A DNA stretch of 64,000 nt, taken from positions 248,001-312,000 of the forward strand of contig NZ_BMTW01000002.1 in assembly GCF_014649875.1 (NCBI RefSeq), in the 5' to 3' direction. This DNA is from Streptomyces rubiginosohelvolus (lineage in GTDB: Bacteria > Actinomycetota > Actinomycetes > Streptomycetales > Streptomycetaceae). The notes under the pieces were generated by a model. It saw nothing but the letters and a program-made list of their open reading frames with translations, was not told the origin of the DNA and searched no databases. Positions 8,464 through 34,799 of the stretch are shown here, piece by piece (the first letter of the stretch is position 1; each line of letters begins with the position of its first letter). The position numbers and the translations under genes are program-made.

Positions 8464-8561
8464 GGTGGTCCGTTCGCTTTCTGTACAGGTGGTGCGGGTG
8501 GGGCTGACGGGGCCACGTACGGTAAGCCCCTCAGCTGATCACTTTCCCGTGGGGGGACCGC

Positions 8562-9170
8562 ATGTCCGACAACTTTCCGCCTCCGCCGCCCGAACAGCCG
8601 CAGCCGGAGTACCGGCCTCCGGCGCAGCCTTCGCCGTGGGCGGCGCCCCCGGGGCCGCCGCAGAAGCAGCGTACGGGGTTGATCGTGACGCTCGCCGTGG
8701 GCGGTGGGCTCATCGTGGCGGGAGCGGTGGTGGCGCTCGTCCACGCGGCGATGTCCTCGGTCCAGGATTCCATCGCGCTGCCGCCGCGGTCGGAGGCCCC
8801 CTACTCGGAGCCGTACGAGGAGGACCCGTACGAGGAGGAGCCCTACGAGGAGGACCCGTACGCCGAGGAGCCCAGCGCGACCGAACCGGACGCGAAGAAG
8901 GACGTCACGATCACCGCGTGCACGCGCGATCCGCAGATCGGCTGGCAGTCGGCGAAGGTGAAGGTCGTGAACGGCTCGTCCACGACGGCGAGCTACACCA
9001 TCATGATGGAGTTTCTCGACGAGGACGGCGTCAAGGTCGCGGAGGGCGGGGCGGGCGTGGTCGACCTGGAGCCCGGCGGGAGCGCTGTGAAAAAGGCGCA
9101 GGGCCTCGGTGAGGTGCCGCCCGGCACGACCTGCCGGATCAGCGACGTCTGGCGCACGCCGTCGGACTGA
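8562..9170 (+). CDS. Single-pass membrane protein with FxLYD-like extracellular domain
   Basis: 202 residues. A Pro/Gln-rich cytoplasmic tail (~1-37) precedes one membrane helix (~39-62). A very acidic repeat follows (PYEEDPYEEEPYEEDPYAEE, ~82-101), then a C-terminal beta domain (~110-200) resembling the FxLYD family (VKVVNGSSTTASYTIMMEF, LEPGGSA). Two cysteines in the C-terminal domain could form a disulfide. No enzymatic motif is visible and the function is unknown. It is a monocistronic gene ending in a very strong shared terminator. Confidence 0.8.
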   Translation: MSDNFPPPPPEQPQPEYRPPAQPSPWAAPPGPPQKQRTGLIVTLAVGGGLIVAGAVVALVHAAMSSVQDSIALPPRSEAPYSEPYEEDPYEEEPYEEDPYAEEPSATEPDAKKDVTITACTRDPQIGWQSAKVKVVNGSSTTASYTIMMEFLDEDGVKVAEGGAGVVDLEPGGSAVKKAQGLGEVPPGTTCRISDVWRTPSD

Positions 9171-9202
9171 CGCGAGGCTTGAGGCCACGGCAGCGGAAAC
9201 GG

Positions 9203-9245
9203 CGCGAGGGCCGCGCCCCGGGAATCCCGGGGCGCGGCCCTCGCG
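9203..9245. terminator. Bidirectional terminator between FxLYD gene and acnA
   Basis: Perfect 20-bp inverted repeat with a 3-nt loop (AAT), lying between two convergent genes 32 bp after one stop and 16 bp before the other. It can serve both strands. Confidence 0.9.
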
Positions 9246-9261
9246 TTGTGCCGCTCGCCGA

Positions 9262-12003
<2,742 letters not shown>

Positions 12004-19428: not shown

Positions 19429-20170
19429 CTACGCCCCGGGGCGGGGCACGGTCACGCCCCGGAGCGCGGTGCGGCCGAGGGGAGTCCGGCCGGGGAAGTC
19501 CGAGGACGCCTCGTACGGCGCGCTCGGTGAGGGTGACGTCGTGCGGGGCGCGTCCGGCGACCGCGATGGGCACCGCCTCCAGGGCGGCGACCACCGCCGC
19601 GGCGGTGTCGCGGCCCGGTGGGCCCGGCGGGATCGAGCTCCGGCGGCCGCCGCGGACCAGGCGTTCGCAGGCGGTGAGCAGCGGGGCGACGGCCTCGTCG
19701 ATCGCCTGGCCCACCGGGTGGTCCCGCCCGGCGAGTTCGACCCGCAGACTGCGCAGCACCGCGGCCATGTCCCGCCGGCAGTAGACGGGGTGCGCGCGGC
19801 GAGCGCGAGAAGCACCTCGGCGGGGTCACCGGGATCGCCGGGGCCATTCGGGCCAGAGGAGGGCGAGTACCCGGCCGACCTCCTCCCAACAGGTCTGCCG
19901 CACCCAGCCCACGACCGCCGGCGCCACCTCCTCCTTGCCGGCGAACTGGTGGTAGAGCGCACCGCGGGTGTAGCCGGCCTCCGCGGCGACCCGGGTCAGG
20001 GAGAGTTCGGCGTACCCGTGGTGTGCCAGGCCGCGCGCCGCGGCCGCCAGCAGCGCGTCCCGGCTGCGCGCCCGGCGCTCGGCCTGCGTACGCCGTGCCG
20101 CAGCGGCGCCTGTCGCGGTGCCCGCCATCGCCGCTGCGCCGGCTGCTCCCGCCGGCGTTGCTGCCGTCAT
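19429..20170 (-). pseudogene. TetR-family regulator interrupted by compensating frame changes
   Basis: The start is clear: AGGAGGTG 8 nt before the ATG at 20170, then an Ala-rich leader and a TetR HTH (RDALLAAAARGLAHHGYAEL, VAAEAGYTRGALYHQFAGKEE). In frame, the protein stops at a TGA at 19826 after LALLWPEW. A short middle segment codes in a second frame (GDPGDPAEVLLALAAR), and the ligand domain returns to the first frame (HPVYCRRDMAAVLRSLRVEL). A +1/-1 pair of indels would explain this. The 3' end is uncertain because no frame has a natural stop before the MurA terminator. Confidence 0.65.
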
Positions 20171-20429
20171 CGGCTGTCACCTCCTGGTCCGCGGGTGCCC
20201 CGCCCCACCGGCCGGAATCGTTCAACATGCATCCACGGCTGTATGTCCCGTTGTGGGGTGTGCGTACGGCGGCGTTGCGGAAGTGGATCTTCCGGACATG
20301 GCCGAACCCGACGGAATGCGCTCGGCATGGACATGCTGGGGCAGAATACGTGGCGTCGTGGACACGTACCGGCGCCGCGGCCCCAGTCCCGTACCGGGCC
20401 GCGCGGCGCCACGGACAGGGAGGCGTGGC

Positions 20430-21620
20430 ATGGCTTTGTCGGCGGTGCCCTTATGGTTACGGCGACCCGGACTGCCGCGTGAACAGACCGCAGCGGGCTC
20501 GGGGTTGCAGCGCGCCAGGTCCTTCATGGTGCTGGCCACCCTGCTCTACCGGGTCAGCCATCTGGCGGTGGGCCTGGTCGCGGTCCTGCAGCACCAACGC
20601 GACGAGCCGGTGCCGTACGCGCTGCTCGCGCTCGCGCTGGGGCTGAGCGCGCTCGTCCACGGCACGGCGCTGCGGCGCGGCTGGTTCGAGCGGCGGCACA
20701 TCTGGGCGGACGTCCTGGTCAACGGGGTCGCGCTGCCGCTGACCCTGTACGCCTGGGGCGGCGCCGAGGACTCCGCCGCGCTCGGCTGGGCGATGCTGCT
20801 CGGCGGCTCGGCGTGCGCCACCGCCGCACTCGTCCTGGACCGGCTCCAGGTCGTCGGCGTGGTCGTCCTGCTCGCCGCCACCCATCTGCTGGGCTACCGG
20901 CTGGTGGACGCCAGCACCGCGGTCGTCCTCGGTCACACCAACTCGCTGCTCTCCTCCGCCGCGATGGCCTGGGTCTTCTGGTGGTACCTGCGCCGCCAGG
21001 GCCGCCTGCTGGACGACGCCAACGCCCGCACGCTGGCCGCCGAGGCGACCAGGGCCCGTTATGTCGAGCGCCTGGAACACCACCGGCTGCTGCACGACAC
21101 CGTCCTCGCCACCCTGACCACCCTCGCCGCCGGCGGGGTGGACGCCAACACTCCCCAGGTGCAGGAGCGTTGCGCCCGCGAGGCGGCGTATCTGCGCCGG
21201 CTGATCGAGCAGACCGCCGACGAGGTCCACCACCGGGGGATCGGCGAGGCCCTGGAGGATGTGGTCGGTGCCGCGGAGAGCCTGCGGCTGCGGGTCACCG
21301 TCCGCTATCACGCCCTGCCCGAGGTGCCGCCGGAGGTCTCCGTCGCCCTCGCGGACGCGGTCCGGGAGGCGTTGAACAACGTGCGCCGGCACGCGGGCAC
21401 CGACCACGCCTACCTCACCGCCACCGCCGACCCCGGACGGCCCGGGGCCGTCGTGGTCACCGTCGTCGACCGGGGATGCGGATTCGATCCGGAGCGGTGC
21501 GAACCCGGCCTCGGGCTGCGCCTCTCGGTCTGCAAGCGGATGACCGCGGTGGGCGGCCGGGCCGAGCTGGACACCGAACCCGGCGAGGGCGTACGGGTGG
21601 AGCTGAGATGGCCCGGGTGA
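20430..21620 (+). CDS. Sensor histidine kinase (NarL-partner type)
   Basis: 396-residue membrane kinase. The ATG at 20430 follows AGGGAGG. About five to six hydrophobic segments occupy ~25-185. A HisKA_3-like segment with the probable phospho-acceptor in LEHHRLLHDTVLATLTTLA precedes a HATPase domain with NNVRRHAG, DRGCGFD and GLGLR. Its last 13 bases overlap the response regulator gene. The sensed signal is unknown. It lies upstream of the LAL regulator and the lanthipeptide locus, so it may take part in their control. Confidence 0.87.
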   Translation: MALSAVPLWLRRPGLPREQTAAGSGLQRARSFMVLATLLYRVSHLAVGLVAVLQHQRDEPVPYALLALALGLSALVHGTALRRGWFERRHIWADVLVNGVALPLTLYAWGGAEDSAALGWAMLLGGSACATAALVLDRLQVVGVVVLLAATHLLGYRLVDASTAVVLGHTNSLLSSAAMAWVFWWYLRRQGRLLDDANARTLAAEATRARYVERLEHHRLLHDTVLATLTTLAAGGVDANTPQVQERCAREAAYLRRLIEQTADEVHHRGIGEALEDVVGAAESLRLRVTVRYHALPEVPPEVSVALADAVREALNNVRRHAGTDHAYLTATADPGRPGAVVVTVVDRGCGFDPERCEPGLGLRLSVCKRMTAVGGRAELDTEPGEGVRVELRWPG

Positions 21621-22261
21621 TCACCGTCGCGCTGGTGGACGACGACCGGATGCTCACCGACGGCATGCGGGCCTGGCTGGGCGGTGTGCCGGGACTGCGG
21701 CTGGTGGCCACCGCGACCACCCCCGCGGAGCTGCTACGCCCGCCGGACCAGGAGCTCCCGTACGCCGCGCCCGACGTGGTGCTGCTCGACCTCCGGTTGG
21801 GCGACGGGTCCGACCCGGTCGACAACATCCGGCTGCTGCTGAGCTCCGGGAGCCGGGTGCTGGTGATCAGCACCGTCCCGGACCGGGCCCGGATCATCGA
21901 GTCGGTACGGGCCGGCGCGGACGGCTATCTGACCAAGGACAACGACCTGCCGACTCTGGTCGCCGCGATCGAGGACGTCGCAGCCGGCCGCGGCGCCCAT
22001 TCCCCGGAACTCGCCTTCGCCTGCGCGCACGACGACAGCCCCGCCCGCCCCCGGCTCTCGCCCCGGGAGCGGCAGATCCTGCTCGACTACGCGTCCGGGA
22101 TGACGCTGAAGTCCGCCGCCCGGCGCGCCGGCATCACGGTGCACACGGCCAAGGACTACCTGGACCGGGTCAAGGCCAAGTACCGGCAGGCGGGCCGGCA
22201 GGCGTACACGAAGATCGACCTGGCCCGGCTGGTGCGGGAGGACAGCCTGGACGGGCAGTGA
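21608..22261 (+). CDS. NarL/FixJ-type response regulator
   Basis: 217 residues. The receiver domain (VALVDDDRMLTDGMR, phospho-Asp in VVLLDLRLGDG, Lys in YLTKDNDL) is followed by a LuxR-type HTH (LSPRERQILLDYASGMTLKSAARRAGITVHTAKDYL). Its ATG lies inside the kinase gene (overlap 13 bp), so the pair is translationally coupled. A hairpin 65 bp after the stop ends the transcript. The target is unknown. Confidence 0.88.
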   Translation: MARVITVALVDDDRMLTDGMRAWLGGVPGLRLVATATTPAELLRPPDQELPYAAPDVVLLDLRLGDGSDPVDNIRLLLSSGSRVLVISTVPDRARIIESVRAGADGYLTKDNDLPTLVAAIEDVAAGRGAHSPELAFACAHDDSPARPRLSPRERQILLDYASGMTLKSAARRAGITVHTAKDYLDRVKAKYRQAGRQAYTKIDLARLVREDSLDGQ

Positions 22262-22632: not shown

Positions 22633-25600
22633 ATGACGCAGCTCCACGTCCGCCCCGCCATCCCCGGTAGCACCTTCCCCGACGGCGCCCGGGCCGTCCC
22701 CGGCGGTGGTGAACCACCGTACAGACAGGCGGAGTTCGTCGGCAGGGAGGCCGAACAGAGGCACATCGCCGCCGCCCTGGTCGCCGCGCGGGCCGGCCGG
22801 GGCGGGGCGCTCTTCGTCACCGGCGAGCCCGGTGCGGGGCGGACCCGGCTCGCCGCCGTGGCGCTCGCCGCGGCCGGCCCCGACCTGGCCACCGCGAGCG
22901 GCCGGGCCAGCACGGTCGGCTCGGTCGTCCCGTACCGCCCGCTGGTCGAGGCGCTGCTGTCGCTGGCCCGCGCCGGACTCCTCCCGGAGCCGGCCGAACT
23001 CGGCATCTACGGCCGTGTGTTGACTCGACTGCTGACCGGCGCCCGGGGAGTCGGCGCCGGCTCCCCGTTGGCGGTCGCCGAGGCCGTACTCCGCTTGGTC
23101 GCCGTCGTCGGACGGCGGCACGGGGCGCTGCTGCTGGTCCTCGACGACCTGCATGACGCCGACCCCGGCACCCTGACGGTGGTCGAGTACCTGCTGGACC
23201 ACCTCGCGCAGCTGCCCGCCGTCCTGCTGCTCACCGCCCGACGCGAGCCCTGCGTGGCGACCGAACTCGCCGCCCGGGCGCGGCAGCGCGGCGCCGCGGT
23301 CGTCCTGGACCTGGCCCCGCTCGACCCCGGCGAGATGCGCCGACTGGTCGCCGCCGTACGCCGGATTCCCCTGGCCGAGGTCGACGCCGAAGTGGCCCAC
23401 CGGGTACAGGAGTACAGCGGCGGCATCCCGTTCGTCGCCGTCGAACTGCTCCAGCAGCCCGGTGGCGACGACGACCACCGACTCCGCCGGCCCCACCTCC
23501 ACCATCACCACCACGGGAGACCGGCGCCCACCGCGGTCGCCGATAGCATCCGATGTCGCACCGCCCGGCTCGCCCCGCTCGGTACGGAGCTCCTGAGCGC
23601 GGCGGCAGTCTGCGGCCCGCGCTTCCCGCTGCCGGTACTGCACCGCGCGCTCGGCTGTACCGACGCCGAACTCACCGCGGTGGTACGGGCGGCAACCGCC
23701 ACCCACCTGATCGTGCCGGACGCCGACGACCCACGGTGGTACGCCTTCCGGCACCCACTGGTGGGCCACGTGCTGCTGGCCGATCTCGCACCGGGCAGCC
23801 GCGCCGCCCACGCCCGCCGGGTCGCCGCCGCCCTGGTCGCACTCCACCCGGAACTCCCCGGCGGCTGGGGCGTGCTCGCGGCCGACCTCCACGCCCAGGC
23901 CGGCGACACCGCGCAGGCCGTACGGCTGTACTGCGCCGCAGCGGAGCGCAGCGCGGGGACGGGGGACGACACGAGGGCGGATCGCGGTGCGGCAGCGGAT
24001 CGCGGTGCGGCGGGTGAGGGTGCGGAGGCCGGGCGCGGTACGGCGGACGAGCGTACGACGGGGGTCGGGGGCGCGCTCGTCCTGCTGGACCGGGCGCACC
24101 GGCTGGCCGGTCCGGACACCCCGCCCGAGCTGCGGGCCACCGTACTGGCCCGGCTGCTGGACGCCGCCGCCTGCGCGGCCCGCTTCCAGCCGGTGGCAGC
24201 GCTGCTCACCGGTAAGGAGGTGCCGGCCGAGGACCTCCCCGCCGCGTCCCGGGCCGGGCTCCACGCCCGACTGGCCGAACTCTCCCTCCTCACCGGACGG
24301 TTAGCGGCCGCTGCCCGGCACCTCGACACCGCCCACTGGCTGCTCGGCGGTGAACCGGCCGACGCCGACACCGCCGTGGTCGACCTTGCCGCCGCACACG
24401 CGCAGCTCCACCGGCTGGCACCCGAGCGACTGTGTACCGCCGCCGAACTCGCCGAACGCGCCCGGGCCGCCGCCCGACGCGCCGAACAGCCCGCCCTCGC
24501 CTGCCGAGCGCTGCTCCTCCTCGCCCGACTCGCGGAGGAACAAGCCGAGTCGGCCGCCCGGGCGCGGCTGGAGGAGGCCCGTACGCTGGCCCGGGCCCAC
24601 CGCCTACCGGTGCTCCGGCTTGCCGCGGAGGCCGAGTTGGCCCGGCTCGCCGCGGACCGCGACGGCCTATTGCCCCCGCTCGTACACGCCCACCGGGAGG
24701 CGGTCCGCCGGGGCGTACCCGCGTTGGCGCAGCACCTCGGTCTGGCGCTGGCCCTGGAGCAGATCCGCCGCGGCGAGTTCGCGGCCGCCGGGAAATGGAT
24801 CCGCGCGGCGACCGTCGAGGCCGAACGGCTGTGCCTCAAGGGGGCGTTGGCCGAACTGCGGATGGCCGAGGCGGTGCGACTGGCCCACCAGGGCCGCCGT
24901 GTGGAGCTGGAACACATCCTGGAGCCGCTGGAGTTGGCCCCCGACGCCGCTCCCGGCCTGCGCCCGGTGGCATACGGGCTGGCGCGCGCCTTCTGCTCGC
25001 TGCTGGAGGAACGGCCGGGCGACGCCGAGCGGGAACTCGCCCAGGCTCTCGCCCTCGACGCGGAGAACCCCTCGACCGCCGACTTCGGCCGCTACGGACT
25101 GGCCGTGCTGCTGGGCGTGTTGGCCGGGCGGATGGGCCGGCAACACCTGCCTGGCACCGCAGGCGCCGGCGGCACCCGCTGGAACCGCCAGTTCGCCGGA
25201 CTGGCGCACGCCGTACTGCTGGGCCGCCAGGGACGCGCCGGAGAGGCGACCGCCGCGGCGGCGGCCGCGCTGGAGGTCGCCGCCACCCACCCCGTCGCCC
25301 GCCACCTGGCGGTGCGCCTGGTCGCCTCGGCCGCGCACCGGGACGGCTGGGGTGCCCCGGTGGAATGGCTGCGCGAGGCCGAGGAGTACTTCCACGGCGC
25401 CGGGCTGCGGGCCCCCGCCGGCGCCTGCCGCGCGCTGCTGCGCGGCATGGGCGCCACGGTCCGGCAGCGGCGCACCGGCACCGAGCAGGTGCCGCCGATG
25501 CTACGCCGGTTCGGGATCACCGCCCGGGAGTTCGAGGTCGCCCAGCTGCTCACCGAGCGGGTCGCCAACAAGGACATCGCCGTTCTGCTGCACATCTCCC

Positions 25601-25818
25601 CACGCACCGTGGAGAAGCACGTGGCGAGCCTGCTCCGGAAGACCGGCCACCCCGACCGCACTGCCTTCGCCACCGCCACCCGCACCACCCCGACTCTCCT
25701 CACGGGCACGGGTATGGGCATCGGTGCAGGGACCAGCAGCGGTACGGGTACGGGGACCGGTACGGCCCGGCTCACCCCGCCCGCCCTCCCGGCGGTCGGC
25801 ACCGGGGACGGCTGGTGA
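22633..25818 (+). CDS. LAL-family (large ATP-binding LuxR) regulator
   Basis: 1061-residue regulator from the ATG at 22633 (AGGAGA upstream). An AAA/STAND ATPase module occupies ~30-350 with Walker A-like GEPGAGRT, in which the usual lysine is arginine, and Walker B LLLVLDDLHDAD. A long Ala/Leu-rich TPR-like region follows. The LuxR HTH is at ~960-1020 (FGITAREFEVAQLLTERVANKDIAVLLHISPRTVEKHV). A His-rich patch (HLHHHHHG) interrupts the ATPase module and the C-terminus is Gly/Thr-rich. LAL proteins often act as pathway activators; its convergent position next to the lanthipeptide genes suggests that role. Confidence 0.88.
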   Translation: MTQLHVRPAIPGSTFPDGARAVPGGGEPPYRQAEFVGREAEQRHIAAALVAARAGRGGALFVTGEPGAGRTRLAAVALAAAGPDLATASGRASTVGSVVPYRPLVEALLSLARAGLLPEPAELGIYGRVLTRLLTGARGVGAGSPLAVAEAVLRLVAVVGRRHGALLLVLDDLHDADPGTLTVVEYLLDHLAQLPAVLLLTARREPCVATELAARARQRGAAVVLDLAPLDPGEMRRLVAAVRRIPLAEVDAEVAHRVQEYSGGIPFVAVELLQQPGGDDDHRLRRPHLHHHHHGRPAPTAVADSIRCRTARLAPLGTELLSAAAVCGPRFPLPVLHRALGCTDAELTAVVRAATATHLIVPDADDPRWYAFRHPLVGHVLLADLAPGSRAAHARRVAAALVALHPELPGGWGVLAADLHAQAGDTAQAVRLYCAAAERSAGTGDDTRADRGAAADRGAAGEGAEAGRGTADERTTGVGGALVLLDRAHRLAGPDTPPELRATVLARLLDAAACAARFQPVAALLTGKEVPAEDLPAASRAGLHARLAELSLLTGRLAAAARHLDTAHWLLGGEPADADTAVVDLAAAHAQLHRLAPERLCTAAELAERARAAARRAEQPALACRALLLLARLAEEQAESAARARLEEARTLARAHRLPVLRLAAEAELARLAADRDGLLPPLVHAHREAVRRGVPALAQHLGLALALEQIRRGEFAAAGKWIRAATVEAERLCLKGALAELRMAEAVRLAHQGRRVELEHILEPLELAPDAAPGLRPVAYGLARAFCSLLEERPGDAERELAQALALDAENPSTADFGRYGLAVLLGVLAGRMGRQHLPGTAGAGGTRWNRQFAGLAHAVLLGRQGRAGEATAAAAAALEVAATHPVARHLAVRLVASAAHRDGWGAPVEWLREAEEYFHGAGLRAPAGACRALLRGMGATVRQRRTGTEQVPPMLRRFGITAREFEVAQLLTERVANKDIAVLLHISPRTVEKHVASLLRKTGHPDRTAFATATRTTPTLLTGTGMGIGAGTSSGTGTGTGTARLTPPALPAVGTGDGW

Positions 25819-25930: not shown

Positions 25931-27577
25931 TCACGGGGAGGAGACCGGTGGGTGGGCTGAGGTCAGCCTGCGCGGAGTGAGCTGCTTTGCCGCCCCCGGG
26001 CCCGGCGCCGGCCCTGATGTCGGGCCCGGCTTCGGCGGTGGAGTCAGGGTGACCACGCGGTCGAAGTGGCTGTCCAGGCCCCCGTCGCCGTGGTGCACCA
26101 CCAGCAGCGCCCGCCCCTCGGTCCGCCCGCTCAGCGCCCGGAACACCACGTCCCGGCCGAGCTCGTCGAGGTTGGCGAACGGCTCGTCGGCGAGATAGAC
26201 GTCCGCGTCCTCGCTCAACAGCGCGCCTACCCCGACCCGTTGCCGCTGCCCGGAGGAGAGGTGCGAGGGGAGCCGTCCGGTCAGCCCGTCAAGGCCGAGC
26301 ACGGCGCGCAGCTCCTCGTCCGGCACCAACTCATCAACCGGGAGGGGCGGGAGGTTCACCGGCGCGGTCAGGCTCGCCACGCGCGGCGGCAGGACGACCG
26401 TACCGGCGTCCGGGGCGAGGGTCCCGGCGACGACGTGCAGCAGGGTGGTCTTCCCGCAGCCGTTGGGACCGCGGAGCAGGACGCGCTCACCGGTGCCCAG
26501 ATCGAAGTCGGCGACCGGTACTTCCTTGGTGTCCGGCACTTCCTTGGTGTCCGGCGCCTCCGCGGTGCCGTCGTAGCGGACCCGCACCCCGCGCAGCCGT
26601 ACCGCGGGGCCCTCGTCGGCGTACCGGGACCGGGGGGAGTCGCGCAACGACCGTATCCGCCGCAGCACCGCGTTGCTCCGCCGGACCTGCGGAATCATGT
26701 TGATCAGGTCGAAGATCCCGGAGACCGCCCGCCACAGCGAGTTCACGAAGGCGAGGAAGCTGCCGAAGGACATCCGGCCGGTGAACACGAAGAACGCCCC
26801 GACCACCATGGACGCGGTGTCCGACAGGTTCATCACCAGGTCGCTGAGGGTCCGTTGCTTCAGCGACAGCCGGTAATTGACGTAGGTGAGGTCCAGGAAG
26901 CCGCCCAGCGCCCGCCGGTTGACCGCCCGGGTGCCCGGCAGCAACGCGGGCAGGCCGCGCAGCGCGTGGAAGGACTCCAGGGTGCGGGTGAGCCGGCTGA
27001 CGTAGCCGGCCTCGGCCTCCCGCTCGGGCTCGGTGTTGTCCTCGATCCGCTTGGCCAGCCGGTTGCTCACGACCACCAGCGGCGGCACGATCACCAGCAG
27101 GATCAGGCTGGCCTGCCAGGACAGGTAGAGCAGCACACCGACGAAGACCAGCGAGGAGACCAGTGTCCGGCCGATCCGGATGCAGACGTCCATCGCGGGC
27201 AGCACGCCCTCACTGACGTCGTTGTGGATCCGGCTGACGTACGAGGCGTTCCCGGGCCCGGTCAGCTTACGGCTGTCCAGACCGAGCGTACGGTCCAGCA
27301 GCTCGGTCTCCAGCGAAAGCATGAACGCGTTCTCGAAGCGCCTGCGCCACGCGGAGATCCAGAACGCCGCCAGGTTGAGGCTGATGCCGAGCACCAGGTA
27401 GCAGCCGCCGAGGAAGAGGAAGCGATGCAGGTCGGCGGTCATGATCGCCTGGTCGAACAGCGCCTTGAGCAACAGCGGGTGCAGCAGCGCCTCGATCCCG
27501 CCGGTGCTCGCCTCGGCGATGAGGATCGCCACGAACCGCGGGCGGTGCCCGCGCAGGGTCTCCCACAGCTCATTCAC
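25931..27577 (-). CDS. ABC exporter of the lanthipeptide locus (fused TMD-NBD)
   Basis: 548-residue half-transporter with N-terminal membrane domain (~1-300, six helices) and C-terminal ATPase: Walker A GPNGCGKTT, signature LSSGQRQRVGVGAL, Walker B VYLADEPFANLDE, switch VVHHG. There is no N-terminal C39 peptidase, so it would export an already processed or leader-bearing peptide. It starts at a GTG overlapping the lanKC stop (GTGA), a coupled arrangement. A PDTKEV tandem repeat sits in the linker before Walker A. It is likely the exporter and possibly self-protection protein of the lanthipeptide. Confidence 0.9.
   Translation of the reverse strand: MNELWETLRGHRPRFVAILIAEASTGGIEALLHPLLLKALFDQAIMTADLHRFLFLGGCYLVLGISLNLAAFWISAWRRRFENAFMLSLETELLDRTLGLDSRKLTGPGNASYVSRIHNDVSEGVLPAMDVCIRIGRTLVSSLVFVGVLLYLSWQASLILLVIVPPLVVVSNRLAKRIEDNTEPEREAEAGYVSRLTRTLESFHALRGLPALLPGTRAVNRRALGGFLDLTYVNYRLSLKQRTLSDLVMNLSDTASMVVGAFFVFTGRMSFGSFLAFVNSLWRAVSGIFDLINMIPQVRRSNAVLRRIRSLRDSPRSRYADEGPAVRLRGVRVRYDGTAEAPDTKEVPDTKEVPVADFDLGTGERVLLRGPNGCGKTTLLHVVAGTLAPDAGTVVLPPRVASLTAPVNLPPLPVDELVPDEELRAVLGLDGLTGRLPSHLSSGQRQRVGVGALLSEDADVYLADEPFANLDELGRDVVFRALSGRTEGRALLVVHHGDGGLDSHFDRVVTLTPPPKPGPTSGPAPGPGAAKQLTPRRLTSAHPPVSSP
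26520..26555 (-). repeat. 18-bp perfect tandem duplication inside the exporter gene
   Basis: ACTTCCTTGGTGTCCGGC occurs twice back to back. It keeps the frame and duplicates the residues PDTKEV in the linker before the ATPase domain. A third, partial unit adjoins it. Confidence 0.9.
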
Positions 27578-30270
27578 GGCGCCACCTCGTCCAGGAGGAA
27601 GTCGGGCAGGCCACCGTGGTTGACCCGGTGCAGCACCCGCAGCACCCCGGCCGAGCCGGTCAGGTAGTCGGTGGAGCAGCGCAGCAGACCCTCGCCGGGG
27701 ACGCCCAGCGGCACCGGCCCGTCGTCACCGCGCGGCACCCCGAAGCGCTCGGCCGGCTCGAAGAGGAAGACCGAGCGTACGTAGTCGAGTTGGCGCAGCG
27801 CGGTGTCCCGGTAGGCGCGGTCGCCGGTGAACTCGGCCGCATCCAGCAGCGCGTCGGCCACCCCGCTGAGCCCGAAGCAGTACGCCGGCAGCACCGAGAA
27901 GCGCACCTCCAGACCGCGCAGCACCTCCCGGGCGGCGTCCAGATCGCCGTAGCGCAGCAGCACTTGCGCCACGCCCGCCGAACCCACCTCCACGTACGGC
28001 TCCATCGTGCCCTCGTGCTCGAACATCTTCCGGCCCTCGTCGTCCAGCTCCTTGAGCCGGCTCATCTCCCAGGCCAGCGCCTCCCGTCCGAGCCGCAGCC
28101 ACTCCTCCTCGCCGGTCACCTGGTGCATCCGCAGCAGGAAGAGCGCCACCCCGGCCTGGCCGAAGCCCAGCCCGGTCAGCGGCTCCTCTCCGGTGAACTC
28201 GTTACGCCAGTGCGCCAATCCGTCCGAGCGCACCGCGCGCTCGCGCAGTGCCCGCGCGCACTCCCGGGCGGAGGCCAGGTCGCCCGGGTCCCGGCCGTGG
28301 TGGAAGAACCGGAGGTTGGTCACGCCCAGGCCACTGAGGCCGTAGTAGAAGGTGTGATCGCCGACCGCGAGCGCCCGCCGGTTGGCGTGGCCGAGCAACT
28401 CCCGTGCCCGTGAGCCCAGTCCGAGCTCGTCGGCCGCCCAGGCGATGCCCGCGAGACCAGCCATCAGCCCGTCCGGGTAGTCGCGCACGTCCAGGTCGGC
28501 GATCCGCTCGGCCAGCCAGTCGCGCCACCGCGGCCGTACAGGCACACCCGAGGCGTGCAGCGCCCGGAGCACCCCGCCCGCCCCGAAGCCCAGGCTCAGC
28601 GGGTTGGTGACGTGCGCGAACGGGTCCACCGGGAAGAGCGTGGCGCGCTCGGGGTCGGCCACCGCGGTGACGAACGCGGCCACCCCGGCCTCCGCCTCCA
28701 CCAGCCGCGCCGGCTCCGGCAGCGCCGGTGGTGGCGGCGCGACCGTCACCCGGTCGACCAGCTCCGAGCCGTCGCCCAGCTCCTCCAGCACGTCGGTGAG
28801 GGTGATCCGGTTCGCGGCCAGGTCCATGATCAGGGTGTGGATCCGCTCCGGCCAGCCAAGCGCGTCGACGAAGACCCGGTAGCTGTCCAGGATGTCCGTG
28901 CGCAGATAGGACATGGCGGCGATCGGGAAGACGAAGTACGCCATGGTGGTCGCCAGGCCGAACAGGTCGCCCTCCGGACCCGCCGCCCGGTAGTGGTGCC
29001 CGGAGAGGCTGAACCCCGGAGTGAACAGCTCGACCGGCTTCGCCAGCGCCGCGTCGTCGCCCGCCTCCGTGCCCGGCGCCTCGATCAGCCGGCACGCCTC
29101 CAGGTCGACGATGGTCACCTCGTGAGTGGCGGTGTCGATGAGCAGGTTCGCCGGGGTGAAGTCGCCCAGGATCACACCGTGTTCGTGGGCCGCTCTGATC
29201 GCCCGGGCCAGCGCGCGGAAGACGTCCACGAAGAGCCGCAGGAAGTCGCGCGACCGCTCGAGGTCGAAGCCGGGCCGGGCCAGCGGGTTGTCGGCGAGCA
29301 GCACCGTACGGATGTCGGCGCCCTCTACGAACTCCTCGGCGATGTAGTGGTGTTCCCAGTGCTCGAAATACGCGATCGGCCGCGGATAGGCCCCCACGTC
29401 GGCCAGCCGGTTCAGGAACATCCACTCCCGGGCCAGGATGTCCACCGCGTCGTGGCCCTGCCGCGGATTGGGGTTGGTGTGCGGGCGAGCCTCCTTCAGC
29501 ACCACCTTGCGGTCCCCGTCCGCGGTGTCCTCGGCGGTGTAGACCCCACCGCTGTTGGAGAACTGGATCGCCCCGGTCACCCGGAAGCGGCCGCCCAGCA
29601 GCCCGTCGTCCTCCGGCTCCTCGGCCGGCTTCCAGTCAGCGAACGGCCATTCCACCCACCAGGGTTGGGCATATCCGGGCTGCCGGTCGTCGGGCACCGG
29701 CCCGTCCGGCCCCTCGATGTGCGCCACCGGCCGCCCGAGCACGTCCACCGCCCGGGAGTGCAGGAACTGGCCGTAGCGGAAGTACAGCGCCCGGCTGTCC
29801 CGGTAGCGCATGTCGGACAGCACGTACGCGCCCTCGACGCCGTCCAGCAGCCGGGCCAGGTCGGCCAGACAGGACCGGAACTCCGCCTCGTCGCGGGGGT
29901 AGACGGTGACCAGCTTGCCGCCGCTGCCCCGGGACATGCCCTTGGAGTTGAGCATCTCGTACACGTTGAGGTCGAGCGCGATCTTGAAGTCGGCCTCCCG
30001 GTCGACCAGATGGCGGATCACCTCGTTCGCCACCCGGTACACGCTGCGGTGGTCCGCCGACACGTGGATCTTCCAGCCCTGCGCTGGCAGTTCGGGATTG
30101 TGCCGGTGGCTCCACCAGATCCCGCTGCGGACGAAGCGCGCCCGGGTGCGCTCGTCGAACCCGGCGAGGAAGTGGTCCTCCCGCGGGTGGTAGTAGACGT
30201 CCAGCGGGTCGAAGAACAGGGTGTCGTTCCAGGCGAAGAGGAAGCGGTTGATCCAACGTTCGTCACGCAT
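27574..30270 (-). CDS. lanKC: LanKC, class III lanthionine/labionin synthetase
   Basis: 898-residue trifunctional enzyme that phosphorylates Ser/Thr of the precursor, eliminates phosphate and cyclises with Cys. N-terminal pSer/pThr lyase (~1-200): GWKIHVSADHRSV and MSRGSGGKLVTVYP. Central kinase (~220-510): VVLKEARPH, catalytic loop HEHGVILGDFTPANLLID, and TIVDLEAC. C-terminal LanC-like barrel (~540-898) with repeated GxxG modules (GLAGIAWAADELG, YGLSGLG, CFGLSGVADAL). The zinc site looks incomplete: a Cys persists in AYCFGLSG, but the CHG motif reads YLTGSAG. This places it in class III rather than IV. It lies downstream of two precursor genes and is coupled to the exporter. Confidence 0.95.
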   Translation of the reverse strand: MRDERWINRFLFAWNDTLFFDPLDVYYHPREDHFLAGFDERTRARFVRSGIWWSHRHNPELPAQGWKIHVSADHRSVYRVANEVIRHLVDREADFKIALDLNVYEMLNSKGMSRGSGGKLVTVYPRDEAEFRSCLADLARLLDGVEGAYVLSDMRYRDSRALYFRYGQFLHSRAVDVLGRPVAHIEGPDGPVPDDRQPGYAQPWWVEWPFADWKPAEEPEDDGLLGGRFRVTGAIQFSNSGGVYTAEDTADGDRKVVLKEARPHTNPNPRQGHDAVDILAREWMFLNRLADVGAYPRPIAYFEHWEHHYIAEEFVEGADIRTVLLADNPLARPGFDLERSRDFLRLFVDVFRALARAIRAAHEHGVILGDFTPANLLIDTATHEVTIVDLEACRLIEAPGTEAGDDAALAKPVELFTPGFSLSGHHYRAAGPEGDLFGLATTMAYFVFPIAAMSYLRTDILDSYRVFVDALGWPERIHTLIMDLAANRITLTDVLEELGDGSELVDRVTVAPPPPALPEPARLVEAEAGVAAFVTAVADPERATLFPVDPFAHVTNPLSLGFGAGGVLRALHASGVPVRPRWRDWLAERIADLDVRDYPDGLMAGLAGIAWAADELGLGSRARELLGHANRRALAVGDHTFYYGLSGLGVTNLRFFHHGRDPGDLASARECARALRERAVRSDGLAHWRNEFTGEEPLTGLGFGQAGVALFLLRMHQVTGEEEWLRLGREALAWEMSRLKELDDEGRKMFEHEGTMEPYVEVGSAGVAQVLLRYGDLDAAREVLRGLEVRFSVLPAYCFGLSGVADALLDAAEFTGDRAYRDTALRQLDYVRSVFLFEPAERFGVPRGDDGPVPLGVPGEGLLRCSTDYLTGSAGVLRVLHRVNHGGLPDFLLDEVAP

Positions 30271-30336
30271 GTCAGCCTCTGTGGTCGTCGTCCGGGGGCC
30301 GCGGGTCGAAGCAGTGGCCGGCGGGGCACGGGCGAA

Positions 30337-30378
30337 GCGGTCCGGGCACGGGCAGTCGACGCCCGCGCCCGGACCGCC
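30337..30378 (-). terminator. Hairpin between second precursor and lanKC
   Basis: Stem GGTCCGGGC-A-CGGGC with its complement, one A/C mismatch and a 7-nt loop, starting 7 bp after the second precursor stop. It probably acts as a partial terminator or 3' stabiliser, giving more precursor than enzyme mRNA. Confidence 0.65.
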
Positions 30379-30384
30379 CGGGGA

Positions 30385-30495
30385 TTACTTCGGCTTCGTG
30401 GTGCAGCAGGTGCTGCTGCTGCTGGTGAGGCTGACCGGGCCACGGGCCGAGGCCGAGGTGGACGGCTGCAGGGTCTGGAGCTTCAGCACACTCAT
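30385..30495 (-). CDS. lanA2: Class III lanthipeptide precursor 2
   Basis: 36-residue precursor with GGAGGAA 7 nt before the ATG and a TAA stop. The leader begins MSVLKLQTLQ, carrying the class III leader motif (hydrophobic-x-L-Q). The core is rich in Ser/Thr with two adjacent Cys: VSLTSSSSTCCTTKPK, residues 21-36. Ser22-x2-Ser25-x4-Cys30 fits a labionin/lanthionine ring pattern. It differs from precursor 1 at five positions (16, 17, 29, 34, 36). It would be modified by the LanKC encoded just downstream and exported by the coupled ABC protein. Confidence 0.9.
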   Translation of the reverse strand: MSVLKLQTLQPSTSASARGPVSLTSSSSTCCTTKPK

Positions 30496-30563
30496 CTGGG
30501 TTCCTCCGGAGTACGGATGGGGGCGGGGGTGGGGGTGGTCACCCCCGGATCGCCGGTGGTGGC

Positions 30564-30601
30564 GGTCCGGGCGGACACGCCGGTGCGGCTCCGCCCGGAC
30601 C
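30564..30601 (-). terminator. Hairpin between the two precursor genes
   Basis: Perfect 12-bp stem GGTCCGGGCGGA/TCCGCCCGGACC with a GC-rich 14-nt loop, 8 bp after the first precursor stop. It shares GGTCCGGGC with the hairpin after precursor 2, so gene plus hairpin look duplicated as a unit. Confidence 0.7.
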
Positions 30602-30609
30602 ACGCGCGA

Positions 30610-30720
30610 TCAGTTCGGCTGCGTGGTGCAGCAGGAGCTGCTGCTGCTGGTGAGGCTCACGGGGCCGCGGTTCGCCGCCGAGGTGGACGGCTGCAGGGTC
30701 TGGAGCTTCAGCACACTCAT
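30610..30720 (-). CDS. lanA1: Class III lanthipeptide precursor 1
   Basis: 36-residue precursor with AAGGAGAA 6 nt before the ATG and a TGA stop. The first 15 residues are identical to precursor 2 (MSVLKLQTLQPSTSA), then ANRGP and the core VSLTSSSSSCCTTQPN (21-36). Ring-forming candidates are Ser22, Ser25 and Cys30/Cys31. It is the first gene of the presumed operon lanA1-lanA2-lanKC-exporter. The upstream region holds a repeat array that may be its operator. Confidence 0.9.
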   Translation of the reverse strand: MSVLKLQTLQPSTSAANRGPVSLTSSSSSCCTTQPN

Positions 30721-30866
30721 GGGACTTCTCCTTGGGGTACGCGTGCGGTGGGCTTGCTGCCCGGGCGGGCGGCGGTCCCGAGTCAACCCCCTTCGGGACC
30801 GGACCACATGGGAGCTCCGTCCCCGTAATCCGGTCCCTCCCACCCCCACCCGGCCGCCTCTTCCCC

Positions 30867-31151: not shown

Positions 31152-31829
31152 TCAGTGTCCGCCCGGCTGAAGTCCCCCCGGCTGGAGCCCGGCGTCACGG
31201 GCGAGGAGGGCGGCCTGGACGCGGTTGTCGCAGTCGAGCTTGGTGAGGATGCGGCTGACATACGTCTTCACCGTGGCCTCGCTCATATGCAGCCGCCGCC
31301 CCGCGTCCGCGTTGGAGAGCCCCTCCCCGAGCAGCGCCAGCACCTCGCGCTCCCGGGTGGTGAGCCCGTCGAGCCGGCGCCGCGCGGCCTCCCCGCGCGT
31401 GGTGGCCCCGGTGGCGGAGAGCACGTCCGCCACATGCCGGGTGGCCGCGGGTGAGAGATACGCGTTGCCCGCCGCCGCGGCCCGCACGGCCTGGATCAGC
31501 TCGTCGGGCGCGGAGTCCTTCAGCAGGAACCCCGCACCGCCGTGGCCGAGCGTCCGCAGTACGTTGTCCCGCTCGCCGAAGGTGGTGAGGATCAGGACCC
31601 GTACCTTCGGCGCGGCGCGGCCGAGCTCGACCAGCGCCGTCAGCCCGTCCATCACCGGCATCTGGATGTCCAGCAGCGCCACGTCGACCCCGCCGCCCCG
31701 GGCCTTCTCCACCGCCTCGCGGCCGTCCCCGGCCTCGGCGACCACGTCGATGTCGTCGGCCGAGGTGAGGATCATTCTGATGCCGGCCCTGATGAGCGGC
31801 TCGTCATCGGCGACGAGGACCCGGATCAC
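31152..31829 (-). CDS. NarL-type response regulator
   Basis: 225 residues: receiver domain (VLVADDEPLIRAGIR, phospho-Asp in VALLDIQMPVMDG, Lys in FLLKDSAP) and LuxR HTH (LTTREREVLALLGEGLSNADAGRRLHMSEATVKTYVSRIL). The C-terminus carries a short duplicated LQPGG. It lies 104 bp downstream of the kinase gene on the same strand and is its natural partner. Confidence 0.92.
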   Translation of the reverse strand: MIRVLVADDEPLIRAGIRMILTSADDIDVVAEAGDGREAVEKARGGGVDVALLDIQMPVMDGLTALVELGRAAPKVRVLILTTFGERDNVLRTLGHGGAGFLLKDSAPDELIQAVRAAAAGNAYLSPAATRHVADVLSATGATTRGEAARRRLDGLTTREREVLALLGEGLSNADAGRRLHMSEATVKTYVSRILTKLDCDNRVQAALLARDAGLQPGGLQPGGH

Positions 31830-31933: not shown

Positions 31934-32302
31934 TCACGTCGCCTTGTACGTCTCCTTGGACACCAACTTCCCGTCCTGGAAGCAGAACCGGAAGACGGTG
32001 AGGAAGTCGACCCCCTGGTCGTCCTCGGAGGTGAAGTGTCGGCACGTCGCTCCGTCGGGCAGCTTGGGCCCCTGGTCCGCCAGGTCCGAGGTGAGCCACG
32101 AGTCCTCCTCGGGAAGCCTGGCCCGGATGTCCGCCTCGGCGTCCCCGACCTTCGCCTCCTCGTAGACACTCGGCGAGATCTCCGCCTTCTTCACCTCTTC
32201 CGTCATGACGCCGATCCCCCAGACGCCCAGGCCGATGACGCCCGCGACGAGGACGACGGCGGTGACGGCGCAGCCGATGGCGACGTTCTTCCTGGTACTC
32301 AT
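31934..32302 (-). CDS. Small membrane-anchored protein, alternative internal start
   Basis: From an internal ATG at 32302, preceded by GAGGGAG 12 nt away, the same frame gives a self-contained 122-residue protein. It has an N-terminal membrane helix (VAIGCAVTAVVLVAGVIGLG) and an extracellular domain with two Cys (ATCRHF, FRFCFQDGKLVSKET). This resembles stand-alone Streptomyces proteins with a single helix and a SmpA/OmlA-like repeat. I infer it was originally a separate gene. It may be translated both alone and as a kinase extension. Confidence 0.5.
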   Translation of the reverse strand: MSTRKNVAIGCAVTAVVLVAGVIGLGVWGIGVMTEEVKKAEISPSVYEEAKVGDAEADIRARLPEEDSWLTSDLADQGPKLPDGATCRHFTSEDDQGVDFLTVFRFCFQDGKLVSKETYKAT

Positions 32303-33913
32303 AATGGCGGTGAACTCCCTCTGTGGATCGGCCCCGTTGATGACCGTTCCACCGTCGTCCACCGCCCCCGGACGCAGCTGCCCCCGAACGTCGCGAGCCG
32401 GTACGACGGAGGTCGCGCCGTACGTCCCCGCGCCCCGGGCACCGTTCCCCGCCCCGTGTCCCCCGAGGTGCCCCGCCCGGCCCTCCGCCCCGCTTCCCGC
32501 CTTGCTCTCCTGCCCGTACGGCAGCATCCCCGCGATCCGGAAGCCGCCGTCCTCGGTGGGCCCGGTGTGCACCATGCCGCCGACCCGGCCGACCCGCTCG
32601 TGCAGCCCTTTCAGCCCTTGGCCGCCGCTGATCCCCGGCGGCACCTCGGGCGCTCCGCCCGGCACGGGCCCGTTGGTGACCTCCACGACCAGGCTGTCCG
32701 GTTCGTACCGCAGGGCAAGGCGTATGGGGGCGCCCGGCGCGTGCTTGTGGGCGTTGGTCAGGCCCTCCTGGACGATGCGATACGCCTCGTGGTCGGCGGC
32801 GGGTGCCAACGGCCGCCGGACACCGCTCCGGTCCAGCGACACCGCCGTGCCCGCGCCCCGGGACGACTCGACCAGGCCGTCGATGGCGGCGGTGGTACGG
32901 GGCGCGTACGGCACCGAGGCGCCGTCGCCCACCGGCTGCCGCCGGCGTCCCTGGTGTTCCCGGTGCTCCCCGTATTCCCGGTAGGGAACCTCCCCCTGGT
33001 TCCCCTGGTTCCCCTGGTGAGACTGATGCCCCTGGTACTGCTGCTCGTTCTGTTGCTCCCGATACTCCGCCTCGTCGTGGAGCACCCCCACCGCCGCCCG
33101 CAACTCCGCCATCGCGGTGACGGAGGCGCCCCGGAGGATCCGTACGGCCTCCCGCTGGCTCCCGGTCAGCTCCGGGTCGACCTGGAGGGCGCCCGCGTGC
33201 ACGGAGATCAGGGCGAGCTGATGGCCGAGGCTGTCGTGCATGTCATGGGCGATGCGGTTGCGCTCCAGCAACCGCGCCTCACGGGCCACCATCGCTTGCT
33301 CGCGCCTGAGTTGCTGATTGTTCTGCCACAACGCGCCGAGCAGCCGCCGCCGTTGGTCCCGGTAGCGGCCGACGAGGGCCGGCACCACGGCCAGGGTCAG
33401 GAATGCCACGACGTTCCACCCGAGGGTGACGGCCAGCACAGGCGCGGTCCCCGAGGCGATGTCGTGGTAGAGGCCCGGGACGGTGTGGAGCACACATGCG
33501 GCCCCGAACGCGGCGGCCACCCGCCAGGGTTCCGTGATCCGCCGCCCCGCCGACCAGGCGGCGCAGACCAGCAGCACGGAGGCCATGACGTTCCACCCCC
33601 CGGCCAGCGGGGCGGAGAGGATGAGGACGGTCGCGGGCAGCGCGTGGCGTGCGGGCGCCAGCAGGGCCGTCGCCCCGGCGAGGAGGACGGTCCGCGCGTC
33701 GAGCGTGTCCGTCCACGCGCCGAAGCCTGTGGCGAGACCGGCGAGGGCGACGGCGAGCACCGCCTCCCCGACGATACGGGCGGGGCTCCAGAGCACACCG
33801 CCGCTCAACCGCCGCCGGAGGCCCCGAACGGCGAGCCCGGCGGAACGCACCCGTCGATCTCCCACATCCGTACCCGCCCTCACATCCACGTCCACATCCC
33901 TGTCCGCATACAC
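31934..33913 (-). CDS. Sensor histidine kinase reading in frame into a small membrane protein
   Basis: About 659 residues if started at the GTG at 33913; the start is uncertain. Four to five membrane helices (~60-190), HisKA_3 H-box NRIAHDMHDSLGHQLALIS (~220), N-box TNAHKHAPG (~389) and GQGLKGLHERVG (~431). A Gln/Gly-rich insert (QQNEQQYQGHQSHQGNQGNQ, ~285-328) separates the DHp and ATPase parts. After the kinase should end (GGFRIAGMLPYG), the frame stays open through ~80 residues of linker-like sequence. It then enters a second protein beginning MSTRKNVAIG. Either this is a true fusion or the kinase stop has been lost. Confidence 0.75.
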   Translation of the reverse strand: MYADRDVDVDVRAGTDVGDRRVRSAGLAVRGLRRRLSGGVLWSPARIVGEAVLAVALAGLATGFGAWTDTLDARTVLLAGATALLAPARHALPATVLILSAPLAGGWNVMASVLLVCAAWSAGRRITEPWRVAAAFGAACVLHTVPGLYHDIASGTAPVLAVTLGWNVVAFLTLAVVPALVGRYRDQRRRLLGALWQNNQQLRREQAMVAREARLLERNRIAHDMHDSLGHQLALISVHAGALQVDPELTGSQREAVRILRGASVTAMAELRAAVGVLHDEAEYREQQNEQQYQGHQSHQGNQGNQGEVPYREYGEHREHQGRRRQPVGDGASVPYAPRTTAAIDGLVESSRGAGTAVSLDRSGVRRPLAPAADHEAYRIVQEGLTNAHKHAPGAPIRLALRYEPDSLVVEVTNGPVPGGAPEVPPGISGGQGLKGLHERVGRVGGMVHTGPTEDGGFRIAGMLPYGQESKAGSGAEGRAGHLGGHGAGNGARGAGTYGATSVVPARDVRGQLRPGAVDDGGTVINGADPQREFTAIMSTRKNVAIGCAVTAVVLVAGVIGLGVWGIGVMTEEVKKAEISPSVYEEAKVGDAEADIRARLPEEDSWLTSDLADQGPKLPDGATCRHFTSEDDQGVDFLTVFRFCFQDGKLVSKETYKAT

Positions 33914-33973
33914 CGGACCGACGGTAGGACCCCCGGAAGAACACGGGTATCGGCCGAGCGTCGTGCCACCGTA

Positions 33974-33998
33974 CGACGAAAGTTGACACCTTTCGTCG
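33974..33998. promoter_or_regulatory. 9-bp inverted repeat in the kinase/scramblase divergent promoter
   Basis: CGACGAAAG and CTTTCGTCG flank TTGACAC; the spacer itself contains a TTGACA -35 hexamer directed toward the scramblase-like gene. The site suits control of the divergent genes by the NarL-type regulator of this locus. Confidence 0.55.
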
Positions 33999-34094
33999 CC
34001 CGGGATCGCGACTTCCGGAGACTGCGCCGGGCCGGTCGTGCGGCTGACGATGGGCGGACCGAATCGGGGCCACGCGGACAACGGGAGATGCCAC

Positions 34095-34799
34095 ATGGAC
34101 AGCACGGGCACGGAGTCGAGTGCAGGAGCGGGTTCGGAGAAGGACAGGGCTGCCGTCAACCTCACCAAAGCCACCCCCGCCCCGGTCCCGGCCCCCACCA
34201 CTGTGGAAGCACCGGACATCCAGTCCCACGACACCTTCGTCATCAAGAAGACACTGAGCCTCACGGCCGGCGAGTACGTGGTGAGCGTGGCCCGGCCGGA
34301 CGGCTCCGAGGGCGAGCCCGTCGCCTACGCACGCGAGAAGCGGCTGTCGCTCAGGGGACAGGTGACCGTCTATACGGACGCGTCCAGGAAGTCCGTTCTC
34401 GCCGCCTTCAAGGGCCGCGACCACGAAGTGGGCTACATGTACGACGTGCGGGACGCTTCGGGCCAGTCCTTCGGGTCGTTCCACGAGGACGCGGGCGCGT
34501 CTTTCCTCCGCAGGACATGGCAGGTGCGGCAGCCGGGGACGATGAAGCTGACCGGCCGCGAGCACAGCCGGGTGGTGGCCTTCGTCCGGTTCGTCTGGGA
34601 GTTCGTGCCGTACCTCGAATACGTGCCGTTCATCTGGCCGTACCGCTTCAAGTACACCGAGAGCGGCAAGACGCTGATGACCGTCACCAAGAAGCTGGGG
34701 CTGCACACCCGGTACGTACTTGAGATCCTCGCGCCCGACATCGACCGCCGTCTCGCCATCGCCCACACGCTGGCTCTGGACGCCCTGGAAGTGGACTGA
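34095..34799 (+). CDS. Scramblase/LURP-one-like protein
   Basis: 234 residues from the ATG at 34095 (GGGAGA upstream). A disordered N-terminal tail (~1-45) precedes a tubby-like beta barrel: HDTFVIKKTLSLTAGEYVV, MYDVRDASGQSFGSF, SFLRRTWQV, PYRFKYTESGKTLMTV, then LEILAPDIDRRLAIAHTLALD as the C-terminal helix. This layout fits the phospholipid scramblase/LURP-one-related superfamily. The function in bacteria is unknown. It is divergent from a two-component system and shares a promoter region with a 25-bp inverted repeat. Confidence 0.7.
   Translation: MDSTGTESSAGAGSEKDRAAVNLTKATPAPVPAPTTVEAPDIQSHDTFVIKKTLSLTAGEYVVSVARPDGSEGEPVAYAREKRLSLRGQVTVYTDASRKSVLAAFKGRDHEVGYMYDVRDASGQSFGSFHEDAGASFLRRTWQVRQPGTMKLTGREHSRVVAFVRFVWEFVPYLEYVPFIWPYRFKYTESGKTLMTVTKKLGLHTRYVLEILAPDIDRRLAIAHTLALDALEVD

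Follow-up and report, generated by a model that had tools for sequence, protein, structure and literature searches.

A class III lanthipeptide locus of the NF038160 family in Streptomyces rubiginosohelvolus, with a neighbouring LAL-type regulator and an operator-like site

The stretch of DNA analysed here (the window, 64,000 nucleotides of Streptomyces rubiginosohelvolus) holds a real class III lanthipeptide locus, which looks intact and is an ordinary representative of a family already catalogued. A ring-containing peptide is the likely product of the cluster, which probably also exports it; judging from the sequence, the cluster appears to be activated by the regulator next to it, acting at a DNA site found before other lanthipeptide genes as well. 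Gene content, family membership, the loss of two zinc ligands, the invariance of the core, and the conservation of the LAL gene and its site were observed directly. It is highly probable that the explanation holds as a whole, namely an operon that makes a class III lanthipeptide of the NF038160 kind and works as proposed below.

The operon comprises two precursor genes, a lanthionine synthetase gene and a single-gene ABC exporter (Table 1). A sequence-only reading of this DNA had described two 36-codon precursors with five differences, a VLKLQ leader and a SLTSSSS(T/S)CC core; all of these are present. LanA1 and LanA2 differ at positions 16, 17, 29, 34 and 36, and share the LxLQ-type leader VLKLQ and the Ser/Thr/Cys core SLTSSSS(S/T)CC; one of the differences lies within the S-to-CC block. 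The two genes are identical at 100 of 111 nt, with synonymous differences in five further codons (including the stop codon), and the gaps lanA1-lanA2 and lanA2-lanKC are 114 bp each. The twins may have arisen by gene duplication. When a duplicated flank was sought around them, the similarity of the upstream flanks (20.0, shuffle mean 19.7) and of the downstream flanks (25.0, shuffle mean 20.1, shuffle maximum 31) was not beyond chance; consequently, it is the coding sequences alone that point to duplication. The ABC gene begins with a GTG inside the lanKC stop (a 4-bp GTGA overlap). This makes coupling of the two genes plausible, in agreement with the coupled exporter of the sequence-only reading. 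That reading had set the span of the locus at 27574-30720, which takes in the lanA genes and lanKC but stops short of the conserved regulators, the promoter/operator region and the larger part of the exporter gene; it missed the LAL-type regulator next door and the operator-like site before lanA1.

Table 1. Features of the lanthipeptide locus and its surroundings (positions in the window)
Feature	Position	Strand	Remarks
Probable histidine kinase, partner of the response regulator at 21608..22261	20118..21620	(+)	HATPase_c 45.8 bits (cut-off 26.4)
Response regulator beside LAL gene	21608..22261	(+)	Response_reg 44 bits (cut-off 30.2); GerE 22.1, just under 23.5
LAL-type LuxR regulator, proposed cluster activator	22633..25818	(+)	Convergent with exporter; AAA_16 ATPase and GerE HTH
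Single-gene ABC exporter (TM domain and NBD)	25931..27577	(-)	GTG start overlaps lanKC stop; ABC_membrane and ABC_tran
lanKC, class III lanthionine synthetase	27574..30270	(-)	898 aa; lyase-type N domain, kinase, cyclase with incomplete zinc site
Stem-loop between lanA2 and lanKC	30334..30378	(-)	-43.4 kcal/mol, z -5.3 against mononucleotide shuffles
lanA2, precursor MSVLKLQTLQPSTSASARGPVSLTSSSSTCCTTKPK	30385..30495	(-)	36 codons; NF038160 52 bits (cut-off 27)
Stem-loop after lanA1	30559..30603	(-)	-37.9 kcal/mol, z -4.3 against mononucleotide shuffles
lanA1, precursor MSVLKLQTLQPSTSAANRGPVSLTSSSSSCCTTQPN	30610..30720	(-)	36 codons; NF038160 48.8 bits (cut-off 27)
TTGACT, putative -35 hexamer	30781..30786	(-)	16 nt after the operator-like site
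Operator-like dyad ATTACGGGG-N8-CCCATGTGGT (ATGGG...CCCAT type)	30803..30829	(-)	82 bp before lanA1; 16/19 consensus positions
NarL-type response regulator	31152..31829	(-)	Upstream of lanA1
Histidine kinase	31934..34264	(-)	Upstream of lanA1
tRNA-Pro (cgg)	44051..44138	(+)	Sole tRNA gene detected in the 64-kb window

NF038160 ("class III lanthipeptide", lanthi_III_c) covers both window precursors over the whole model. Since this precursor family is already curated in NCBIfam, its kind is not new. The sequence-only reading had proposed that the product may be new; this may hold for the product itself and fails for its kind. No described product for the NF038160 or CC-core family was found among the matches listed for product names and core strings, in a search that covered few subscription journals.

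NF038160 matches at E<=0.001 occur in 31 of 394 genomes sampled from the window's taxonomic family, and 25 of these genomes are above the cut-off. The precursors of five of the 25 (G207, G171, G067, G199 and G147) have no CC core; a CC core together with NF038160 is found in 20 of the 394 genomes. Across 396 genomes sampled from the phylum there are two matches at E<=0.001, and only the window's own genome exceeds the cut-off. A different precursor type, with a core like SSGSCDSNSCNTT or SCSSCDSQSCNG, also passes the cut-off at L018, L026 and L027; these sequences suggest that the model is not limited to a single core type. Named genomes were also scanned with six exact peptide patterns, a method bound to overlook some members, and 19 loci were obtained. 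These include S. avidinii, S. griseoluteus, S. roseicoloratus, Streptacidiphilus melanogenes and Actinacidiphila alni; one record is labelled Streptosporangium nondiastaticum. The organism names suggest that the CC-core family belongs to the Streptomycetaceae.

The core is strictly conserved. Each of the 48 precursors at 27 loci with a related LanKC contains S-x-[ST]-S-S-x3-C-C. For this count, all small ORFs were taken that began like a leader and lay <=2.5 kb upstream of such a LanKC, and the motif played no part in the choice; identical peptides from sister genomes occupy some of the rows, L071 and L072 yielded none, and L041 and L048 are without LanKC. An earlier count (44/44) was set aside as circular, the precursors having been picked by that very motif. 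Among 44 distinct, motif-picked peptides, the three positions before CC vary (SSS, GSN, QLL, AMH etc.). The number of precursors also varies: 16 of the 27 related loci have one, six have two, two have three, one has four and two have five. Twins are therefore not essential, and a pair such as that of the window is nothing unusual among these loci. LanKC and an ABC homologue follow the precursor(s) in 20/20 related loci of the family set and in 17/19 pattern-scan loci; the two exceptions, L071 and L072, look decayed.

The lyase, kinase and cyclase parts which the sequence-only reading had assigned to LanKC are all found: RamC_N at residues 46-218, a kinase region at 240-400 and LANC_like at 601-829. 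RamC_N and LANC_like score above their cut-offs; the kinase region reaches 24.3 bits with Pfam Pkinase, under the 31.7 cut-off, and has the catalytic motifs. GDFTPAN and DLE are retained in an alignment with the RamC-like enzyme of the same genome and the LanL enzymes of relatives. LanKC scores 602.7 bits against NF038151 (cut-off 575, a narrow margin) and 445 bits against NF038150, under its 650 cut-off; class IV and class II models are all below theirs. With the precursors above the NF038160 cut-off and LanKC above that of NF038151, the class III assignment of the earlier reading is borne out.

Class III enzymes have an incomplete zinc site, while the complete set of ligands is found in class IV LanL. 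LanL of L094/L095 has WCSG and CHG at the aligned zinc positions; the window LanKC has VEVG and YCFG. Two of three ligands are thus replaced (Cys by Glu, His by Phe) and one Cys is kept. This incomplete set, combined with the lyase, kinase and LanC-like cyclase, places the window enzyme in class III, apart from class IV LanL. Four aligned LanKC relatives have VEVG and YAFG at these positions (Ala where the window keeps Cys), and the cyclase is predicted to be metal-independent. In a PDB sequence search, solved LanKCs rank first for the whole protein (8sao, E 7.9e-49), and the cyclase part gives only a weak match (8car, E 1.3e-8). Identity to the two other (RamC-like) class III enzymes compared is ~31-34%; together with the narrow NF038151 margin, this means that ring chemistry is not transferable from other class III enzymes. 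The labionin motif S-x2-S-x(2-5)-C, which is no proof of labionin, can be drawn as S22-x2-S25-x4-C30 or x5-C31. The invariant residues would allow one labionin (S22, S25, and C30 or C31), while T24 and S26 would be dehydrated. For a core that begins at S22, the calculated unmodified mass is 1501.602 Da for LanA1 and 1529.707 Da for LanA2; loss of four waters would lower these to 1429.560 and 1457.664 Da.

The earlier reading had noted that no leader peptidase gene lies in the locus. This agrees with our results: no such gene was seen in the operon, and a Pfam domain search at E<=0.01 gave no peptidase domain in the ABC exporter protein. The genome has six M1 matches. Three are full-length with HExxH and lie outside the locus, on contig 3 at 465546 and 474953 and on contig 10 at 33036; with these three M1 enzymes as the only queries, neither the window nor any of 23 fetched loci gave a relative. 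In the PDB, two of the three match 7v9n best (957 and 901 bits) and the third 8t41 (595 bits); 7v9n is presumably an AplP-type enzyme. AplP-type enzymes process class III leaders, according to the accessible part of PMC8960859.

The site before lanA1 has the pattern ATTAYGGGG-N8-CCCATGTG. In the family, the region upstream of the first precursor has the pattern ATTATGGGG-N8-CCCATGTGCG, followed by a TTGACT-like hexamer; TTGACT or a close variant is similarly placed in many related upstream regions. The dyad is a candidate LAL binding site, and the hexamer may have promoter activity. The strict pattern has a single match in the window and a single match in the genome. The best site match is above all 20 shuffles of its own sequence in 19/29 upstream regions and not in the other 10, the consensus having been derived from the same upstream regions on which it was scored. 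In 451,584 bases of 23 loci there are 14 matches at >=15/19 positions, each just upstream of a precursor gene. In 42 genomes, 11 matches have <=2 mismatches, nine before family precursors and two before LanM. At <=3 mismatches the count rises to 28, compared with 17 when the pattern is reversed (a control not split by mismatch number). Of the 17 three-mismatch matches, the six that were inspected are at lanthipeptide operons or an orphan precursor, the window included.

LAL-type regulators have an N-terminal AAA ATPase and a C-terminal LuxR HTH in about 1000 residues, which is what the neighbouring regulator shows; in the longer ORF from 22333, AAA_16 (81.2 bits) and GerE (37.6 bits) are both above the Pfam cut-offs. 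Its next-best match in the genome is at 40 bits. A LAL homologue is near LanKC in 18/20 family-set loci and 18/19 pattern-scan loci (two overlapping sets). Convergent, divergent and co-directional arrangements all occur; consequently, this conservation is not mere synteny. Across 42 genomes, a LAL match at E<=1e-50 is present in 19/20 genomes with the CC core and in 1/22 without it, where 18 candidates were scored per genome and the 22 controls, all of the window's genus, are NF038160 negatives plus two SapB-like weak matches. The pairing is not universal in the family, as three exceptions indicate. L042 and L049 have the operon and neither a LAL gene in the fetched stretch nor a recognisable site; L035 has the LAL gene and no recognisable site. 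The operator-like site, the hairpins and the LAL regulator probably belong to the locus.

Two pairs of two-component genes flank the locus. The parent ORF of the response regulator beside the LAL gene is matched in 9/20 loci, so this gene is conserved in part of the family. ORF 20813-22261 was rejected as a full response regulator because its first 265 residues overlap the histidine kinase gene in another frame; the regulator probably starts at 21608, and the true start of the kinase is probably further in. The NarL-type pair upstream of lanA1 was rejected as part of the system. It has no match >80 bits in 23 loci, and the 19 pattern-scan loci gave a single response regulator match (145 bits, L066); the pair is thus not conserved.

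A strong stem-loop (z < -1.5) follows the last precursor in 24/28 loci without N and is missed in L038, L041, L058 and L061. Counted by stem-loop row, z < -1.5 is reached in 31/44, excluding L033, which contains N and for which z is meaningless. A consensus of 19 hairpins has 14 pairs, 11 with double-sided change; the covariation term is small (-1.38), and the hairpin windows were selected as the most stable, which favours pairing. The 19 hairpins come from 19/29 loci; L033, L038, L039, L041, L048, L056, L058, L061, L063 and L066 were excluded, among them the weakest two (L058 and L061). The stem-loop between lanA2 and lanKC is proposed to be a partial terminator or mRNA stabiliser. From the general design of RiPP operons, the hairpins may balance precursor and enzyme mRNA.

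The regulator and site are also found together at class II genes. In L108, L109, L110 and L116, a LAL gene (37-41% identity) lies beside a class II synthetase, and a site of 15-17/19 is just upstream of the synthetase gene. Three of the four synthetases are assigned to class II by DUF4135 at >390 bits and the fourth by LanM at 692.5 bits. These four came from ten fetched loci chosen for their LAL match, so they show an association, not a frequency. L112 and L116 also have a distant LanKC with ~30% identity. In L111, a site of 15/19 precedes, from 12194, a 25-aa ORF (MKKIAVRKTGSIKLTSPASYVLVVC) which looks like a small RiPP precursor; it has no NCBIfam match.

Some precursors stand alone. L041 (9930-10049) and L048 (9920-10030) are orphan family precursors with an operator-like site upstream (16/19 and 17/19 respectively), and no LanKC, ABC or LAL match was found within ~20 kb of them. 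Complete clusters are present at other positions in both genomes.

From these data, we infer how regulation, ring pattern, export, leader removal and activity may come about. The LAL regulator, perhaps under the adjacent two-component system, would bind the ATGGG-N-CCCAT dyad that immediately precedes the TTGACT promoter, and would in this way activate lanA1-lanA2-lanKC-abc. Owing to the stem-loops after each precursor, transcripts of the precursors would outnumber those of the enzyme. The VLKLQ leader would dock on LanKC; the kinase would phosphorylate core Ser/Thr and the lyase domain would eliminate the phosphate to give Dha/Dhb. The metal-independent cyclase would join Cys to Dha, forming lanthionine, or labionin from the invariant S22-x2-S25-x4-C30 spacing. 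The second invariant Cys, Cys31, may enter another ring, form a disulfide or remain free. The ABC protein would export the peptide, and a housekeeping peptidase encoded elsewhere would remove the leader.

A SapB/AmfS-type morphogen locus, triggering aerial growth, would also have a class III enzyme with a RamC_N domain, and the NarL-type response regulator and histidine kinase upstream presumably recall ramR. This role, raised by the sequence-only reading, is very unlikely here: contig 17 of the same genome (L083) encodes another LanKC, which scores higher (1052.8 bits), and a RamS-like precursor adjoins it (MALLDLQAMDT...SLLVCEYSSLSVVLCTP, L083 4312-4443), whereas the window precursors match NF038160 instead. 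Moreover, the upstream pair is not conserved with the cluster and the window core is short and polar; durhapeptin activity was abolished by replacing hydrophobic residues, as the available part of PMC13380574 describes. The peptide may alternatively be a signal for the adjacent two-component system, or act inside the cell, and not be an antibiotic. This is unlikely, even though the response regulator and LAL genes accompany part of the family, a probable kinase gene lies beside them in the window, and two genomes have orphan precursors with the same site elsewhere; an exporter homologue in 20/20 LanKC loci fits secretion, and no link between kinase and peptide was seen.

The earlier reading had also proposed that the product is made as a pair. 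The twin precursors are real, and at least two precursors occur in 11/27 related loci; some of these pair a polar loop with a more hydrophobic one (SSSD against QLL, WVN or AMH). A two-component lanthipeptide, in which both twins are required together, is nevertheless improbable: such a system is not conserved, as 16/27 loci have a single precursor, and the window twins, which share one apparent operon, differ at only one residue of the S-to-CC block. Decay can be observed among the relatives. In L071 (S. virginiae, LanKC 8001-10529) and L072 (S. amritsarensis, LanKC 8001-10520), the precursor is broken, the exporter homologue is absent, and Gly replaces both the kinase catalytic Asp and the Asp of DLE; a LAL gene is kept, as is a promoter motif, TTGA(C/G)T. 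The dN/dS between the two is 0.55, compared with 0.23-0.32 for four other pairs. This relaxed value suggests that both loci are probably decaying. In contrast, the ORFs and catalytic residues of the window copy are intact and its operator-like site and hairpins are present, and it is extremely unlikely that the window holds a decaying or silent locus without functional product.

Taken jointly, the data allow a broader reading, which is tentative and rather doubtful. A dedicated LAL lineage and its ATGGG-N-CCCAT operator might form a lanthipeptide-specific switch of the Streptomycetaceae that drives the class III operons of the family, class II LanM genes and distant orphan precursors; one LanKC could then modify a dispersed, expandable precursor set. 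The CC-ended core, with its invariant S-x-T/S-S-S frame and variable three-residue loop, might represent a ring topology new to class III.

Three points go beyond the earlier reading: the pairing of regulator and site, the dispersal of precursors and the strictness of the CC core. The conserved pair offers a practical way to activate a cryptic cluster and can guide the search for more lanthipeptide operons and orphan precursors. The core is small and very regular and differs naturally in three loop residues, a good basis for work on ring topology and on the substrate tolerance of a divergent LanKC. Sequence catalogues already include the family, and its product is undescribed as far as the literature could be searched; most precursor families lack a characterised member, according to the accessible part of Walker et al. 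(PMC7268733).

The window locus resembles SapB/AmfS (RamC/RamS) in its class of LanKC, its LxLQ leader and an operon without visible peptidase gene. The precursors of RamC-like enzymes are longer-cored, with two S/C-rich halves, whereas the window core is a single polar block ending in CC. The ram cluster has two ABC genes; the window locus has one.

The likeness to labionin peptides of the labyrinthopeptin/noursin type is that S-x2-S-x(2-5)-C can be drawn through S22, S25 and C30 (motif as given in the accessible part of PMC8960859). Unlike these peptides, the window core has two vicinal Cys and four near-invariant Ser/Thr within ten residues. Compared with noursin, as presented in the available text of PMC10206099, the window precursor is without His and the operon shows no S9 peptidase gene.

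ThurKC (PDB 8sam) shares with the window enzyme the order lyase-kinase-cyclase, an incomplete zinc site and docking of an LxLQ-type leader (PMC10604976, accessible part). Good alignment is limited to the lyase-kinase part (169.5 bits, residues 42-453). The zinc sites also differ: the accessible part of PMC10604976 gives Ser726/Phe770/Asp771 for ThurKC, while the window LanKC has Glu and Cys-Phe.
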